Shown piece by piece: positions 7,769-49,610 of a stretch of 64,000 nt of DNA; position 1 is the first letter of the stretch; each line of letters opens with the position of its first letter. Origin of the DNA: Sandaracinus amylolyticus (GTDB lineage Bacteria; Myxococcota_A; Polyangia; Polyangiales; Sandaracinaceae); contig NZ_CP011125.1 in NCBI RefSeq assembly GCF_000737325.1, positions 9,672,001-9,736,000 on the forward strand, in the 5' to 3' direction. The notes beneath the pieces were generated by a model. The model was not told where the DNA came from, did not search any database, and saw only the letters and a program-made list of their open reading frames with translations. A program made the translations under genes and the position numbers.

Positions 7769-9001
7769 ATGACTCGCATTCCGGTCGGTTCCTCCTTCCT
7801 CGTGCTGCTCGTGCTCGCGGGCTGCGCCAACGACATGAACGGCATCCTCGCGTCACCGACGACCGGGGATCTGCTCGATCCGCCGGCGCAGCGCGTCGAC
7901 GTGTTCGCGGAGATCCGCGCGCAGTGCGGCGAGTGGGCGGAGCCGGGCGGCGACGTGAAGCGCTGGGCGTACGTGCAGTCGGTCTCGCACGACTCGGCGC
8001 GCGTGGTGTGGACGACCAGCGCCGAGCACGCGGAGCTGCTCGAGCTGTGGCAGCAGGAGGGCGACGAGCCGACCGTCGCGGAGCCCGCGCTCGACGAGAC
8101 GCGCTACCTGCGCGACGCGCGCCAGATGAGCGTGCCGCTGCTCGGCCTCGAGCCCGATCGCATCTACTGCTATCGCCTGCGCACGCGCGACGGCGACGTG
8201 GTGTACGGACCGACCGGGTTCCGCACCGCGCCGCGCACCGGTGAGGGCACCGCGCGCATCGTGGTGTTCGGCGACTCGGGCGGCGCGAACGCCGATCAGG
8301 TCGCGGTCGGCGAGCAGCTCGGCACCGTCGCGATGGACGCGGTGCTGCACACCGGCGATCTCGCGTACGAAGACGGCACGCTCGGGCAGCTCGAGGCGAA
8401 GCACTTCGCGATGTACGGGCAGCTCATGGCCTCGGTCCCGTTCTTCCCGTCGATCGGCGATCACGATCACGCGACGGGCTCGGCCGGGCCGTACCTCGAG
8501 GCGTTCGCGCTGCCGGATCGCGCGAGCGGCAGTGAGCGCTTCTACTCGTTCGACTGGGGCCCGGTGCACGTCGTCGTGCTCGACTCGAACGTCGATCTGC
8601 GCCCGCAGCGCACGTTCCTGCAGCGCGACCTCGCCGAGCACGCGGGCTCGCCGTGGACGATCGCGGTGATCTCGACGCCGCTCTACTCGAGCGGCTTCCA
8701 CGGCGGTGATCGCAGCCTGCGCGACGCGTTCCAGCGGCTCTTCATCGACGGCGGTGTCGACCTCGTCGTGAGCGGCGACGATCACGACTACGAGCGCACC
8801 AACCCGATCGAGGGCGTGACCTACGTCGTGACCGGCGGCGGAGGACGCAGCGTGCGCAGCGTGGGCAAGTCGTGGTTCACCGCGTTCTCGACGACCGCGT
8901 TCCACTTCGTGTCGATCGAGGCCGATCGCGAGCGGCTGCGCCTCCACGCGATCGACGGCACGGGTCGCGAGTTCGACGGAGTCGAGCTCACGAAGCGCTG
9001 A
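7769..9001 (+). CDS. Purple acid phosphatase-like lipoprotein with altered metal ligands
   Basis: A 410-aa lipoprotein (VLAGC, Cys19). Residues about 60-155 look like the fibronectin-III-like N-domain of purple acid phosphatases, followed by a metallophosphoesterase domain to about 390. Motif 1 GDSG (Asp169) and motif 2 GDLAY (Asp197, Tyr200) are intact. The expected GNHE/D is GDHD (Asn to Asp231). The VxxH strand reads VIST (His to Thr303). The GHxH motif reads GDDH (first His to Asp337, His339 kept). Three ligands of the dinuclear centre are therefore changed, so metal choice or activity may differ. Its last codons overlap the convergent GTPase gene by 14 bases. Confidence 0.8.
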   Translation: MTRIPVGSSFLVLLVLAGCANDMNGILASPTTGDLLDPPAQRVDVFAEIRAQCGEWAEPGGDVKRWAYVQSVSHDSARVVWTTSAEHAELLELWQQEGDEPTVAEPALDETRYLRDARQMSVPLLGLEPDRIYCYRLRTRDGDVVYGPTGFRTAPRTGEGTARIVVFGDSGGANADQVAVGEQLGTVAMDAVLHTGDLAYEDGTLGQLEAKHFAMYGQLMASVPFFPSIGDHDHATGSAGPYLEAFALPDRASGSERFYSFDWGPVHVVVLDSNVDLRPQRTFLQRDLAEHAGSPWTIAVISTPLYSSGFHGGDRSLRDAFQRLFIDGGVDLVVSGDDHDYERTNPIEGVTYVVTGGGGRSVRSVGKSWFTAFSTTAFHFVSIEADRERLRLHAIDGTGREFDGVELTKR

Positions 9002-9713
9002 GCTCGTCGTCCTCGATCGCGCGCAGCACGCGATCGATCGCGCCGCCGACGCGCCCCTCGAGCTCGCCGGCGGTGCGCTCGGGATCGGAGCCCTCGTGCA
9101 CCGGCACCGCGTCTGCCTCGAGCGAGGGACGCGCCGCGTCGCGGGCGATCGCGAGCGCCGCGAAGAACGTCTCGCGCACACCCTCCCCGCGCACCGCGAT
9201 CGCGTCGATCACGCGGCGCGCGGGGATGTCGAGCGCGGCGGCGAGCGCCTCGCCCGAGAGCGCGCCCGCGACGTCCTGCTTGTTGGCCTGGAGCACGAGC
9301 GGCACGTCCTCGAGCAGCCCGCTCGCGCGGAACGCGCGCAGCGCCTCGAGCGACACGCGGTTCCGGCGGTGCGCGCCCGGCGTCGCGTCGAGCACGAGCA
9401 CCGCGACGTCGGCCGCCGACAGCAGCGCGACGCGCTGCGACGCGAGCGAGAGCTGCCCCGGCACGCTGAACACCTCGCAGCGCGCGGGATGCTCGCCGCG
9501 CGCCGAGTCGACGCGACCGACGTCGACGTCGAGCAGGTCGTAGCGCAGCGTCGATCCGCCCGGCGTCTCCGCCGGCGTCCGCACCGTCGAGCGGCGCGAG
9601 ACGGGCAGCAGCGACGCGAGCGTGCGGACGTTCGTCGTCTTGCCGGCGCGCGACGGGCCGTCGTAGACGACCCGCAGCACCAGCTGCCCCGTCTCGCGAT
9701 CGAAGCGCGCCAC
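8988..9713 (-). CDS. MglA-like small GTPase
   Basis: A Ras-like GTPase of 241 aa. The P-loop GPSRAGKTT is at residues 19-27, the switch II region reads SVPGQ in place of the usual DTAGQ (as MglA has VPGQ), and NKQD is the guanine-specificity motif. The C-terminal 60 residues are acidic and not part of the G domain. MglA-type GTPases control cell polarity and motility in myxobacteria and are turned off by Roadblock-domain partners. The gene immediately upstream encodes such a Roadblock protein, so this is the output enzyme of a three-gene cassette (9.0-11.3 kb). Gap to the upstream gene is nine bases. Confidence 0.85.
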   Translation of the reverse strand: MARFDRETGQLVLRVVYDGPSRAGKTTNVRTLASLLPVSRRSTVRTPAETPGGSTLRYDLLDVDVGRVDSARGEHPARCEVFSVPGQLSLASQRVALLSAADVAVLVLDATPGAHRRNRVSLEALRAFRASGLLEDVPLVLQANKQDVAGALSGEALAAALDIPARRVIDAIAVRGEGVRETFFAALAIARDAARPSLEADAVPVHEGSDPERTAGELEGRVGGAIDRVLRAIEDDELSAS

Positions 9714-9722
9714 GACGATCGC

Positions 9723-10088
9723 TCAGCGACGGTCGATCTGGAGCGCCTTCTCGATCGACTCGAGCTCGCGGCGCGCGAGGCCGAGGTTCGATCGGCTGCG
9801 ATCGAGCACGACGTAGAAGAAGAGGCTCGTCCCGACCATGCGGATCAGGTGGTACTGGCCCGAGAGCGAGATGAGGATGTCCTCGATCTGCATCTGCACG
9901 CCGAGCTTGTCGCGGATCTTCTTCTTGGCGCGCACGACCTCGGTGTTGCCCGCCGCGGCGAGCTCGAGATCGAAGCCCGGTGCGCCCGCGGTGCCGAGCG
10001 TCATGCCCGACTGGAAGTCGACGAGCGCGGCGCCGGTGGCGCCGTCGATCTGCAGGATCTGCGCGAGCGATGTCTTGATGTCGGCCAT
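9723..10088 (-). CDS. Roadblock/LC7-domain protein (MglB-like)
   Basis: A single 121-aa Roadblock/LC7 fold. It has an N-terminal helix, the strand pair around GATGAALVDFQSGMTLG, and the central helix and strands with HLIRMVGTSLFFYVVLDRS. It ends in a C-terminal helix rich in charged residues. Roadblock proteins dimerise and regulate small GTPases, often as GTPase-activating proteins. It sits nine bases before the GTPase gene, on the same strand, which supports partnership. No catalytic residues can be read because Roadblock GAPs act by reshaping the GTPase. Confidence 0.85.
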   Translation of the reverse strand: MADIKTSLAQILQIDGATGAALVDFQSGMTLGTAGAPGFDLELAAAGNTEVVRAKKKIRDKLGVQMQIEDILISLSGQYHLIRMVGTSLFFYVVLDRSRSNLGLARRELESIEKALQIDRR

Positions 10089-10103
10089 GTCTCTCCTCGA
10101 GGC

Positions 10104-11252
10104 TCACGCTCCGTGCGTGGCGGAAGGGGTCGATGCGAGCGCGGCGGCGAGCTCGTGCCGCGCGAGCGCGAGGTTCACCGCGGGGTCGTCGTAGGCGACG
10201 TACACCACGAAGCGATCGGAGCCGGGCAGTGCGCGCGCGACGTGCGCGCGCTCGCCGCCGAGCATCACGTCGGAGCGCGCCGCGCCGTCGAGCGTGATCA
10301 GGCGCGCGAGGCCCCACGCGATCGCGGTGTCGAGGTCGTCGCCGTCGTCGAGCACCGCGACGCCGGTCGCGCAGTCGAGGATCGCGACCGAGCACGCACC
10401 GTTCCCGCGGAGCGCCGCGACGAGGCCGACCCAGGCCTCGCGCCCGACCGTCTCGACCGTGCCCGACGCGCGCGTCGTGAGCGGCGGCGGCTGGGTGGGG
10501 CGCGCGACCTCGCGACGCTCGAACGAGAGCTGCGCGTGATAGGCGAGCGTGCCGGGCGCGAAGAGCGCGACCGCGCCGTCGGCGTCGAGCGTCGGGCCCA
10601 GCCGCGCTTCCACGAAGCGGCGCACGCCCTCGCGCACCTCCGCGGCATCGAGGCGCCCGCGATCGACGAGCACGTCGGCGAAGTGCCGTCGCGTCTCGCG
10701 CGCAGTGCGCGTCAGCTCCGCGGCCTCGCGACGATCGAGCGCGGGGAACACGTCGCTGAGCCCCGTGGGCTCGCCCGCGCGGTGCACCCAGACGATGCGG
10801 CCCTCGTGCACGTGGATGCGCGTGGTCTCGTCACCGACGCGCACCACCACCTCGCCTCCGCGCGGATGCGCCAGCGCCTCCGCGAGCGCGGCGCGCGGCG
10901 TCGCGCCCCGAGGACGGCTCACGTGGCGCAGCGCGAACGCGATGCGCGCGCGCGCCTCCTCGGCGGTGAACGGCTGCAGCAGCACGTCGTCGGCACCCTG
11001 GTCGAGCGCGTCGGAGAGCGCGCTGCTCGCCGCGACGGCGAGCACCCACGTGCGCCCGCTGGGTGGCGGGATGGAGCGTCCGTCGAACGGCGCGACGACG
11101 ATCTCCGCGTCACCCGACGTCACGAGGTCGACGTCGTCGCGCTCGGAGAGCACCCTCTCGAGCCGCTTGCGCGACTGCGCGTCGAGGTCGATCACACACA
11201 CGCGCACACGCGCGTGTGCAACTTCGATCGGAACCTTCGCGTGGCTCGCCAT
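10104..11252 (-). CDS. Degenerate receiver + DUF4388 + Roadblock-like protein
   Basis: A 382-aa three-part protein. Residues about 15-110 fold like a response-regulator receiver (VCVIDLD at the first strand, ADDVLLQPF at the last) but the usual phosphoacceptor strand reads DAEIVVAPFD, so phosphorylation is doubtful. About 115-235 resembles DUF4388 (PatA-type N-domain), including the FADVLVDRGRL helix. About 275-380 resembles a Roadblock domain (GACSVAILDCATGVAVLDDG). It is the first gene of the cassette with the Roadblock protein and the GTPase and probably couples an input to the GTPase switch (inference). Confidence 0.7.
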   Translation of the reverse strand: MASHAKVPIEVAHARVRVCVIDLDAQSRKRLERVLSERDDVDLVTSGDAEIVVAPFDGRSIPPPSGRTWVLAVAASSALSDALDQGADDVLLQPFTAEEARARIAFALRHVSRPRGATPRAALAEALAHPRGGEVVVRVGDETTRIHVHEGRIVWVHRAGEPTGLSDVFPALDRREAAELTRTARETRRHFADVLVDRGRLDAAEVREGVRRFVEARLGPTLDADGAVALFAPGTLAYHAQLSFERREVARPTQPPPLTTRASGTVETVGREAWVGLVAALRGNGACSVAILDCATGVAVLDDGDDLDTAIAWGLARLITLDGAARSDVMLGGERAHVARALPGSDRFVVYVAYDDPAVNLALARHELAAALASTPSATHGA

Positions 11253-11461: not shown

Positions 11462-12124
11462 ATGGTCGCTGCAGTGGGATCATCCCCCGACGAATCACGC
11501 CCCCACCGGCTGCTGCTGGTCGACGATCATCCGATCATCCGGGCGGCGCTGCGGGCACAGCTGAACGGCGTGCCCGGCGAGTTCCTCGTCGTGGGAGAGG
11601 CATCGAACGCGCGCGCCGCGCTCAAGCTCGCGGAGGCGCACGGTGTCGACGTGGTGCTGATCGATCTCGAGCTCGATCGCGACTGGGGCATGGACCTGCT
11701 GCTCGTGCTGAAGAGCCGGTTCCCCGAGCTGCGCGTGCTGGTGTTCACCGCGCACGACGATCCGATGCTGGCGCAGCGCGCGATCGATCTCGGCGCGCTC
11801 GGCTACGTCGCGAAGACCGACGACATCGCGCTGGTCGACGCGCTGCGCGCGGTGGCGCGCGGCGAGGTGTTCCTCGGCCCGTCGATCGCGACCCACCTCG
11901 TGCGGCGCTGGCGCACTCGCTCGGGACAGCTCCTCAGCGATCGCGAGGTCGAGATCTTCCGGCTGATCGGGCGCGGCCACGAGACGAAGGACATCGCGTC
12001 GGCGCTCGGCGTCAGCGTGAAGACCGTCGAGACGCACCGCGCGCGCATCCGCAACAAGCTCGGCATCCGCGGCGTCGGCGAGCTCATCGTGCGCGCCGCG
12101 CTCTTCGCGCGCGGTCAGGAGTGA
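11462..12124 (+). CDS. NarL/FixJ-type response regulator, orphan
   Basis: A 220-aa regulator. The receiver has the acidic pair DD in LLLVDDHP, the phosphoacceptor Asp in VVLIDLEL, the Thr in VFTAHDD and the Lys in YVAKTDD. The C-terminal LuxR-type HTH contains LSDREVEIFRLIGRG and VSVKTVETHRARIRNKLGI. It would activate or repress genes once phosphorylated by a histidine kinase, but no kinase is encoded nearby. The ATG at 11462 is chosen because the frame upstream is low-quality sequence. It is divergent from the GTPase cassette across a 209-base gap in which I see no clear operator. Confidence 0.9.
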   Translation: MVAAVGSSPDESRPHRLLLVDDHPIIRAALRAQLNGVPGEFLVVGEASNARAALKLAEAHGVDVVLIDLELDRDWGMDLLLVLKSRFPELRVLVFTAHDDPMLAQRAIDLGALGYVAKTDDIALVDALRAVARGEVFLGPSIATHLVRRWRTRSGQLLSDREVEIFRLIGRGHETKDIASALGVSVKTVETHRARIRNKLGIRGVGELIVRAALFARGQE

Positions 12125-48807: not shown

Positions 48808-49610
48808 CGCGCCTCGACGCCCACGACGTTCGGCAGATCCCAGAATTCACGGACGTCGTCGGCCTCGTGGAATCCGTCCTCCCAGCTGCCCATCTCGCGC
48901 ACCTGGGTGCGTCCCGCGTCGATCACCAGCGACGCCTCGGGGCCGCCCTCCATGTACACGAGACCGCGCAGCCCGAGCGCGTCGGCGGCGAGCATCTCGG
49001 CGAGCACCTGCATGCGATACGGGGTGCGCACGTGGACCATCACCGCGCGGCCCTCGCGGTCCGCGCCCAGCAGCGCCGCGCTGTAGCGGCGGGTACGCCA
49101 CGTGCGCTGCGGTCGTCCCTCGCAGTCGACCATCATGCGCACGCCCTGGAGCACGCTGTCGTAGCGCTCCGTCATTCCGTCGAGATCGAAGCCGCATCCC
49201 GTGCCTCCGATCGCGAAGGGCGCACGCTCGGCGCGGGGATCGAAGCCGATCACCGCGTCGAAGCGCGCGGGACGGCGATCGCTGCGCACCTCGCCGCGCG
49301 CGCGCAGATAGCCGCAGCTGCGCCCGCTCGGCAGGAACATGCCCGCGTTGATCGCGCCCACGAGGCGGTGATCGCGCACCCACGCGGGCGCAGGGCGCCG
49401 CGGTCCTTCGTGGCTCTCGGTGAGGAAGCGCAGCGCGTAGCGCCGCAGATCGAAGCGCACGATCGTCGCGATGCGATCGCCGACGTCCACCTCGGGCGCG
49501 CGCGGCAACCGCACGCGCTCCACGACCAGCGCCTCGTCCTGTGCGCTCGATGTCGGAATCCCGATCGCGATCAGGATCACGATCGCGGCAGCTCGACCCG
49601 CAGCTCGCAT
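48804..49610 (-). CDS. Phosphodiester glycosidase-family protein (NAGPA/DUF2233)
   Basis: A 268-aa exported protein with a signal peptide (about 1-23). It has the DUF2233 core: VGAINAGMFLPSGRSCGYL, then GGTGCGFDL, the RRYSAALLGADREGRAVMVHVR strand and ALNLDGGPEASL-type motif here as GLVYMEGGPEASLVI. The domain occurs in the enzyme that uncovers mannose-6-phosphate and in bacterial exopolysaccharide proteins. It overlaps the histidine kinase end by 34 bases, so its expression is coupled to the sensor. Probably acts on a phosphodiester-linked glycan (inference). Confidence 0.8.
   Translation of the reverse strand: MRAAGRAAAIVILIAIGIPTSSAQDEALVVERVRLPRAPEVDVGDRIATIVRFDLRRYALRFLTESHEGPRRPAPAWVRDHRLVGAINAGMFLPSGRSCGYLRARGEVRSDRRPARFDAVIGFDPRAERAPFAIGGTGCGFDLDGMTERYDSVLQGVRMMVDCEGRPQRTWRTRRYSAALLGADREGRAVMVHVRTPYRMQVLAEMLAADALGLRGLVYMEGGPEASLVIDAGRTQVREMGSWEDGFHEADDVREFWDLPNVVGVEAR

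Follow-up and report, generated by a model that had tools for sequence, protein, structure and literature searches.

A three-gene GTPase locus

We analysed a 64,000-nucleotide stretch of the genome of Sandaracinus amylolyticus (NCBI RefSeq assembly GCF_000737325.1, contig NZ_CP011125.1, positions 9,672,001 to 9,736,000; hereafter the window), and within it a trio of genes that encode a small MglA-like GTPase, a stand-alone Roadblock protein, and a fusion of a receiver relic, a DUF4388/PATAN-like domain and a C-terminal Roadblock domain (Table 1). The genes lie on one strand in the order fusion, 15-base gap, Roadblock gene, 9-base gap, GTPase; the open reading frame (ORF) coordinates agree with the three same-direction genes and the two gaps given in an initial annotation made from the sequence alone. 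All three ORFs are coding by score and are under purifying selection, as judged against the genome of a sister species (G024), with dN/dS of 0.039/0.154 for the GTPase gene, 0.007/0.108 for the Roadblock gene and 0.033/0.212 for the fusion gene. The stand-alone Roadblock protein differs between the two species at 1 residue in 121, and its gene is preceded by GAGGAGA, a ribosome-binding-like sequence. The classical mglBA pair of the window's genome (G000) is located apart from the trio, at G000:C1:5711540-5712543; this rules out that the trio is mglBA itself and bears out the earlier view that the two are distinct.

Table 1. Features of the trio, in positions of the window
Feature	Position	Strand	Details
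MglA-like small GTPase	8988..9713	-	241 aa, GTG start; match to T. thermophilus MglA 3t12
Stand-alone Roadblock protein (type RBa)	9723..10088	-	121 aa; predicted fold, Foldseek
Fusion: receiver relic - DUF4388/PATAN - Roadblock	10104..11252	-	382 aa; Pfam, profile-profile, model, homologues
Receiver relic, about residues 15-123 of fusion	10884..11210	-	Phospho-acceptor Asp block missing
DUF4388/PATAN-like domain, about residues 130-254 of fusion	10491..10865	-	
C-terminal Roadblock domain, about residues 271-373 of fusion	10134..10442	-	alpha-2 shortened, without AGN motif
Ser54 codon TCG of GTPase	9552..9554	-	Place of the MglA intrinsic Arg (GRT, switch I); Arg57 three residues on
SARG four-residue insert, interswitch loop of GTPase	9495..9506	-	Alignment with single-domain relatives

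The GTPase lacks the intrinsic arginine of MglA

Pfam matches the GTPase only with Arf (E 3.5e-5), and phmmer searches against the PDB retrieve MglA of Thermus thermophilus (3t12, E 3.2e-23) and of Myxococcus xanthus. The GTPase motifs are complete, with GPSRAGKTT in the P-loop, FSVPGQ in G3 and QANKQD in G4; together with the PDB match, the G3 sequence confirms the MglA-like GTPase with a VPGQ switch proposed initially. Relative to the Group 1 motif TVPGQ, the window protein reads SVPGQ, with V, P, G and Q kept and T replaced by S. All Group 1 MglA proteins are also described as having an essential intrinsic Arg beside the switch-I (G2) Thr (PMC4316618). Ser54 occupies this place in the window GTPase, and Ser is likewise found in G024. 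Group 2-5 GTPases are reported to have a Thr where Group 1 has its Arg, and GTPGQ as their G3 motif (PMC4316618); the window protein, with Ser and SVPGQ, has neither feature.

The replacement is rare. We defined full family GTPases as locus GTPases scoring at least 150 bits against the hidden Markov model (HMM) of the family (n=34); 32 of them have Arg at this place, one has Ser (L074_12, from the sister species) and one has His (L080_06). The four other MglA-like GTPases of the window's genome all have Arg. A sequencing error was rejected as the cause, because both species use TCG here, which differs from every Arg codon by two or more changes. The two proteins with Ser have an Arg three residues further on (GSTLRYD versus GRTLFFD), and among seven aligned single-domain relatives the interswitch insert SARG is present only in these two. 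The interswitch region is where the C-terminal helix of MglB acts on MglA (PMC11016934). Inspection by eye of the two regulators revealed no Arg special to the window's genome, in a comparison of two genomes that has no power.

In a tree of 39 GTPases, from which Groups 2-5 were left out, the 34 locus GTPases and that of the window are separated from the genome's four other MglA-like GTPases by a branch with 100/100 support. Within it, the window GTPase groups with the single-domain GTPases of G024, G033, G052, G063, G272 and G288 (85/90, below the tool's star). Many other family GTPases have C-terminal extensions of about 250-800 aa (L083, L086, L176, L186, L187, L191, L192); Pfam gave no match to those of the L083, L086 and L079 GTPases. 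One clade of the family has VPGH for VPGQ and has lost the catalytic Gln.

Two dissimilar Roadblock domains and a receiver relic

Robl_LC7 of Pfam matches neither Roadblock domain of the trio and has a single match in the whole genome, at the classical mglB. The stand-alone protein has no Pfam match up to E 1 and no NCBIfam match. Its family profile could be aligned with MglB of its own genome over 36 columns only (E 0.019, prob 2.4), a failed direct link, and a PDB profile search gave nothing significant, with MglC as the best match (E 0.061) beside two other Roadblocks and ribosomal L7/L12. With direct sequence links to MglB failing, it is the predicted fold that supports the Roadblock assignment. 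An AlphaFold model built from four sequences (mean pLDDT 85.1, pTM 0.79) has the alpha-beta-beta-alpha-beta-beta-beta-alpha order of the Roadblock/LC7 superfamily, and Foldseek matches it in the PDB to Roadblock/LC7, MglB and Ragulator chains (E ~1e-6, TM ~0.8). An AGN motif, read from the alignment by eye, is common to its family and MglB. The protein annotated as a separate single Roadblock is thus without a Pfam match but has the predicted fold.

The last 110 residues of the fusion match the Roadblock family in a profile-profile comparison with prob 97.6 and E 4.2e-12, against E 0.36 and 0.72 for unrelated controls. In the model, residues 271-373 show the same order of elements as the stand-alone protein, and their top PDB structure matches are MglB. 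This model is less certain than that of the stand-alone protein: block means of pLDDT are mostly 61-86, with one at 53, and the other rows of the alignment were Roadblock proteins, which favours this end of the chain. Over the whole fusion the mean pLDDT is 53.9, and the receiver and PATAN parts of the model are unusable. The profile match, the order of elements and the MglB matches uphold the initial claim that the fusion ends in a Roadblock domain; with the fold of the stand-alone protein, they also sustain the claim of two different Roadblock domains in the trio. That the Roadblock calls are wishful is ruled out by the fold tests and by the profile tests with their controls. In the fusion, alpha-2 is about 10 residues shorter and lacks AGN. 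The two Roadblock subunits are not equivalent, because this stretch is shared by the stand-alone protein and MglB.

The DUF4388 domain of the fusion scores 19.1 bits against a 25-bit cut-off in Pfam, and that of the G033 orthologue scores 25.4 bits. The N-terminal part is weaker when taken alone, with an NCBIfam response regulator match to residues 80-123 (E 1.7e-4) and a profile-profile match to receivers of E 0.0085 and prob 4.7 (control against Roadblock, E 0.53). The receiver identity of the first ~120 residues is established by more distant homologues, since L167_04 (G272) and L195_02 (G219) have full receivers in which the phospho-acceptor Asp is kept. In the window protein the stretch that bears this beta-3 Asp is missing, and the KPF that holds the beta-5 Lys reads QPF. 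By its sequence the receiver is non-phosphorylatable, as had been annotated. The receivers of G033 and G052 are degenerate or missing too, yet their GTPases keep the Arg.

Related loci in the class

At E <=1e-3, 19 of the 115 order genomes contain the stand-alone Roadblock protein. At E <=1e-10 it occurs in 57 of 317 genomes sampled from the class and in 22 of 377 sampled from the phylum; the three samples overlap. A survey of relatives for the gene order GTPase-Roadblock-fusion, as the initial annotation had proposed, located it in G024, G033 and G052, that is, in four order genomes out of 115 with the window's own, which bears out co-occurrence of the three genes in relatives. We read 96 loci, 20 of them from matches to the GTPase, Roadblock or fusion proteins and 76 around further Roadblock matches in the class and phylum. 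Genes were called with a home-made caller and scored with HMMs built on the same loci, so that locus members match these HMMs partly by construction. Within 6 kb of the 34 full GTPases there are two or more Roadblock genes in 27 cases, one in 7 and none in 0, the last count being biased because a Roadblock was the reason for choosing most of the loci. A less biased set consists of 29 loci selected by their GTPase and read with 1.5 kb on either side (L003-L031); here a Roadblock flanks 9 of 13 GTPases with at least 200 bits. The four without one are L007, L010, L013 and L015; for L007 and L010 it is present in the wider stretch (L093, L086), and L015 belongs to the same family as the window.

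Receiver, PATAN and Roadblock are joined in one protein in 35 cases among the loci read, and phospho-acceptor Asp and Lys are kept in 31 of these (23 by pattern, and 8 on reading the 12 exceptions). L177_07 (G288), whose end looks Roadblock-like by eye and has no HMM match to support it, was not counted. The combination of an MglA-like GTPase and two Roadblocks unlike each other, which are often receiver-PATAN fusions, recurs in the class, and the window trio is a stripped-down version of it.

All six clusters whose GTPases group with that of the window contain its Roadblock type, free or fused, and a PATAN gene. The second Roadblock is HMM-scored in G024, G033, G052 and G063; for G272 it was deduced by aligning the fusion with phmmer, and for G288 it is unproven. 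Because G272 and G063, relatives with single-domain GTPases, keep canonical fused receivers, a phosphorylatable receiver-PATAN-Roadblock partner is the likely ancestral form, which would have lost its phospho-site towards the window's genome, the second Roadblock being free-standing. The Roadblock tree, with few columns and long branches, does not place the Roadblock of the fusion.

Relation to known systems

Earlier work described one-to-two MglA/MglB systems, PATAN genes in the neighbourhood of MglA and fusions of a receiver with MglB (PMC4316618). The trio resembles the M. xanthus polarity module MglA/MglB(/RomR/MglC) in having an MglA-like GTPase, an adjacent Roadblock-fold partner, a receiver-containing partner and two kinds of Roadblock. 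It differs in that a single protein contains the receiver, PATAN and the second Roadblock, and Ser replaces the intrinsic Arg; unlike MglB, it lacks the residues and tail discussed below, and mglBA is separate in the genome. The one-MglA/two-MglB systems (Group 3 and some of Group 1) described by Wuichet and Sogaard-Andersen in 2014 (PMC4316618) likewise have one GTPase, two Roadblocks and a receiver-like protein. In Group 3 this last is reported as a receiver/winged-helix protein (PMC4316618). The trio has a PATAN-Roadblock fusion instead, and its GTPase has SVPGQ and Ser. Two gammaproteobacterial loci, L032 and L033, have a second Roadblock 56-57% identical to the stand-alone Roadblock of the window. 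By gene content they look Group 3-like, with a GVPGQ GTPase, two Roadblocks and an upstream protein of ~296 aa. The five Response_reg-MglB fusion sequences reported (PMC4316618) share a receiver and an MglB-like C-terminus with our fusion, which differs by an intervening PATAN domain and a dead receiver.

Actinobacterial conservons (CvnA-D) also combine a Roadblock and an MglA-type GTPase in one operon. Unlike these Group 2 systems, the trio has no histidine kinase and no CvnC-like match among its three proteins in Pfam and NCBIfam, and the only kinase-like gene scored within the window is at 49577. Ragulator, with MP1-p14 and related heterodimers, offers a further parallel, since two different Roadblocks there serve the small Rag GTPases and its chains are among the structural matches. 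Rag GTPases, however, function in pairs and have a Roadblock domain of their own, and the likeness is one of analogy only. Heteromeric Roadblock complexes have been discussed as a theme (PMC9481161). A literature search, which covered PATAN and Roadblock papers in part and by title, found no paper on the trio, on the receiver-PATAN-Roadblock architecture and its spread in the class, or on a VPGQ GTPase with a replaced Arg.

A proposed switch and its alternatives

We favour, at roughly 0.55, the view that the three genes make up a self-contained GTPase switch with a mixed Roadblock platform, a PATAN link to a partner, a dead receiver and an Arg-less GTPase. The initial annotation had suggested opposing or hetero-oligomeric control of the GTPase by its two Roadblocks, which stays a hypothesis. 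The stand-alone Roadblock and that of the fusion would form a two-subunit platform, a putative heterodimer most likely replacing the MglB homodimer, which binds the GTPase and sets the rate of GTP turnover. The M. xanthus MglB homodimer is asymmetric on MglA, with one protomer at switch I as the GTPase-activating protein (GAP) and the C-terminal helix of the other promoting exchange (PMC11016934). By analogy, this invites the reading that each of the two unequal Roadblocks has one MglB protomer job, so that the platform would act as two MglB copies do, with the jobs given to different subunits. PATAN would connect the platform with a partner, for which a component of the type IV pilus or of cell polarity is the most plausible candidate. 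Such an output of the trio is a fair guess by analogy, because cyanobacterial PATAN regulators have a link to the type IV pilus apparatus (PMC7690835) and two PATAN proteins are among the candidates of an M. xanthus pilus study (PMC11580455). The receiver would formerly have let a histidine kinase set the state of the platform; as its phosphorylation site is lost in the window's genome, it may be at most a binding surface, and the binding of a partner or the level of protein would set the switch. Because the intrinsic Arg is lost, GTP hydrolysis is expected to be slow, unless Arg57 or a partner supplies the charge.

Several observations weigh against this switch. M. xanthus MglB and MglC, a pair of Roadblocks, associate as homodimers with 2:4 stoichiometry and not as a heterodimer (PMC7949163). 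Asn37 and Arg98, the GAP residues of M. xanthus MglB (PMC11016934), are not conserved in the stand-alone Roadblock by eye, and the long C-terminal tail of MglB is absent. Four of the eight Roadblocks of the closest clade (G035, G306, G053 near 376064, and G140) have no full family GTPase in the stretch read, which means that this Roadblock type can occur without the GTPase. Finally, the loss of the receiver could mean decay, although selection on the fusion resembles that on its neighbours.

The MglC precedent, with MglC as the weak top PDB profile match of the stand-alone Roadblock, suggests a doubtful but still sizeable alternative, in which the stand-alone protein is a GAP homodimer that a homodimer of the fusion captures or sequesters. 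The MglC match is not significant, and in relatives both kinds of Roadblock lie near each other within a single GTPase cluster. In contrast, mglC is not known to be part of the mglBA operon. Loss of both the Arg and the receiver site, and the patchy presence of the trio in the order, would also fit an orphaned, drifting module on its way out in the genus; we regard this as quite improbable, given dN/dS well below 1 in all three genes, the near-identity of the Roadblock protein between the species, the intact remaining GTPase motifs, and the relatives G033 and G052, which keep the Arg despite their own receiver losses. A third account concerns the GTPase only. The Arg may have moved rather than been lost, Arg57 doing the same job after a movement of beta-2, and the enzyme working like an ordinary MglA. 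Arg at that place is peculiar to the window and G024 among the tabulated GTPases, as this account would have it; a shift of three residues on a beta strand, however, puts the side chain on the opposite face, and we hold it unlikely.

The heterodimeric switch could be extended, tentatively, to the whole class: a widespread family of GTPase switches with heterodimeric Roadblocks fused to receiver-PATAN, in which phosphorylation would act directly on the regulator. The window would then be a derived form, its phospho-input cut and its intrinsic Arg mechanism replaced, outside the described prokaryotic MglA-type catalytic classes. Few worked examples exist of a bacterial two-component signal being handed over to a Ras-like GTPase (RomR/MglA, conservons), and this hand-over would become a single step with a protein that joins receiver, PATAN and Roadblock and is encoded next to the GTPase. 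The dead-receiver, Arg-less form of the window is a natural comparison for the roles of phosphorylation and of the Arg. With two unequal Roadblocks, the asymmetric roles within the MglB homodimer could be examined in wild-type proteins, where linked constructs would otherwise be used.

Neighbouring genes and further loci

At its 3' end the GTPase gene shares 14 bases (8988-9001) with the convergent gene at 7769-9001, and the same overlap exists in G024. Upstream of the fusion gene, a divergent receiver/helix-turn-helix regulator (11474-12124, + strand) has a 96% identical copy at the same place in G024; the stretches of G033 and G052 yielded no such gene. The nearest relatives of the window's stand-alone Roadblock outside the trio (L082, L133, L134, L135) are orphan Roadblocks, with no full family GTPase in the stretch read. 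In nine loci (L080, L081, L137, L139, L141, L142, L143, L148, L165), a second GTPase-like gene with broken motifs stands beside a full GTPase or Roadblocks, and several of these nine combine a GTPase pair with a Roadblock pair, a make-up like that of Rag/Ragulator. A single chain of 388 aa encoded by gene 6 of L171 (G275) contains both GTPase-like and Roadblock domains.

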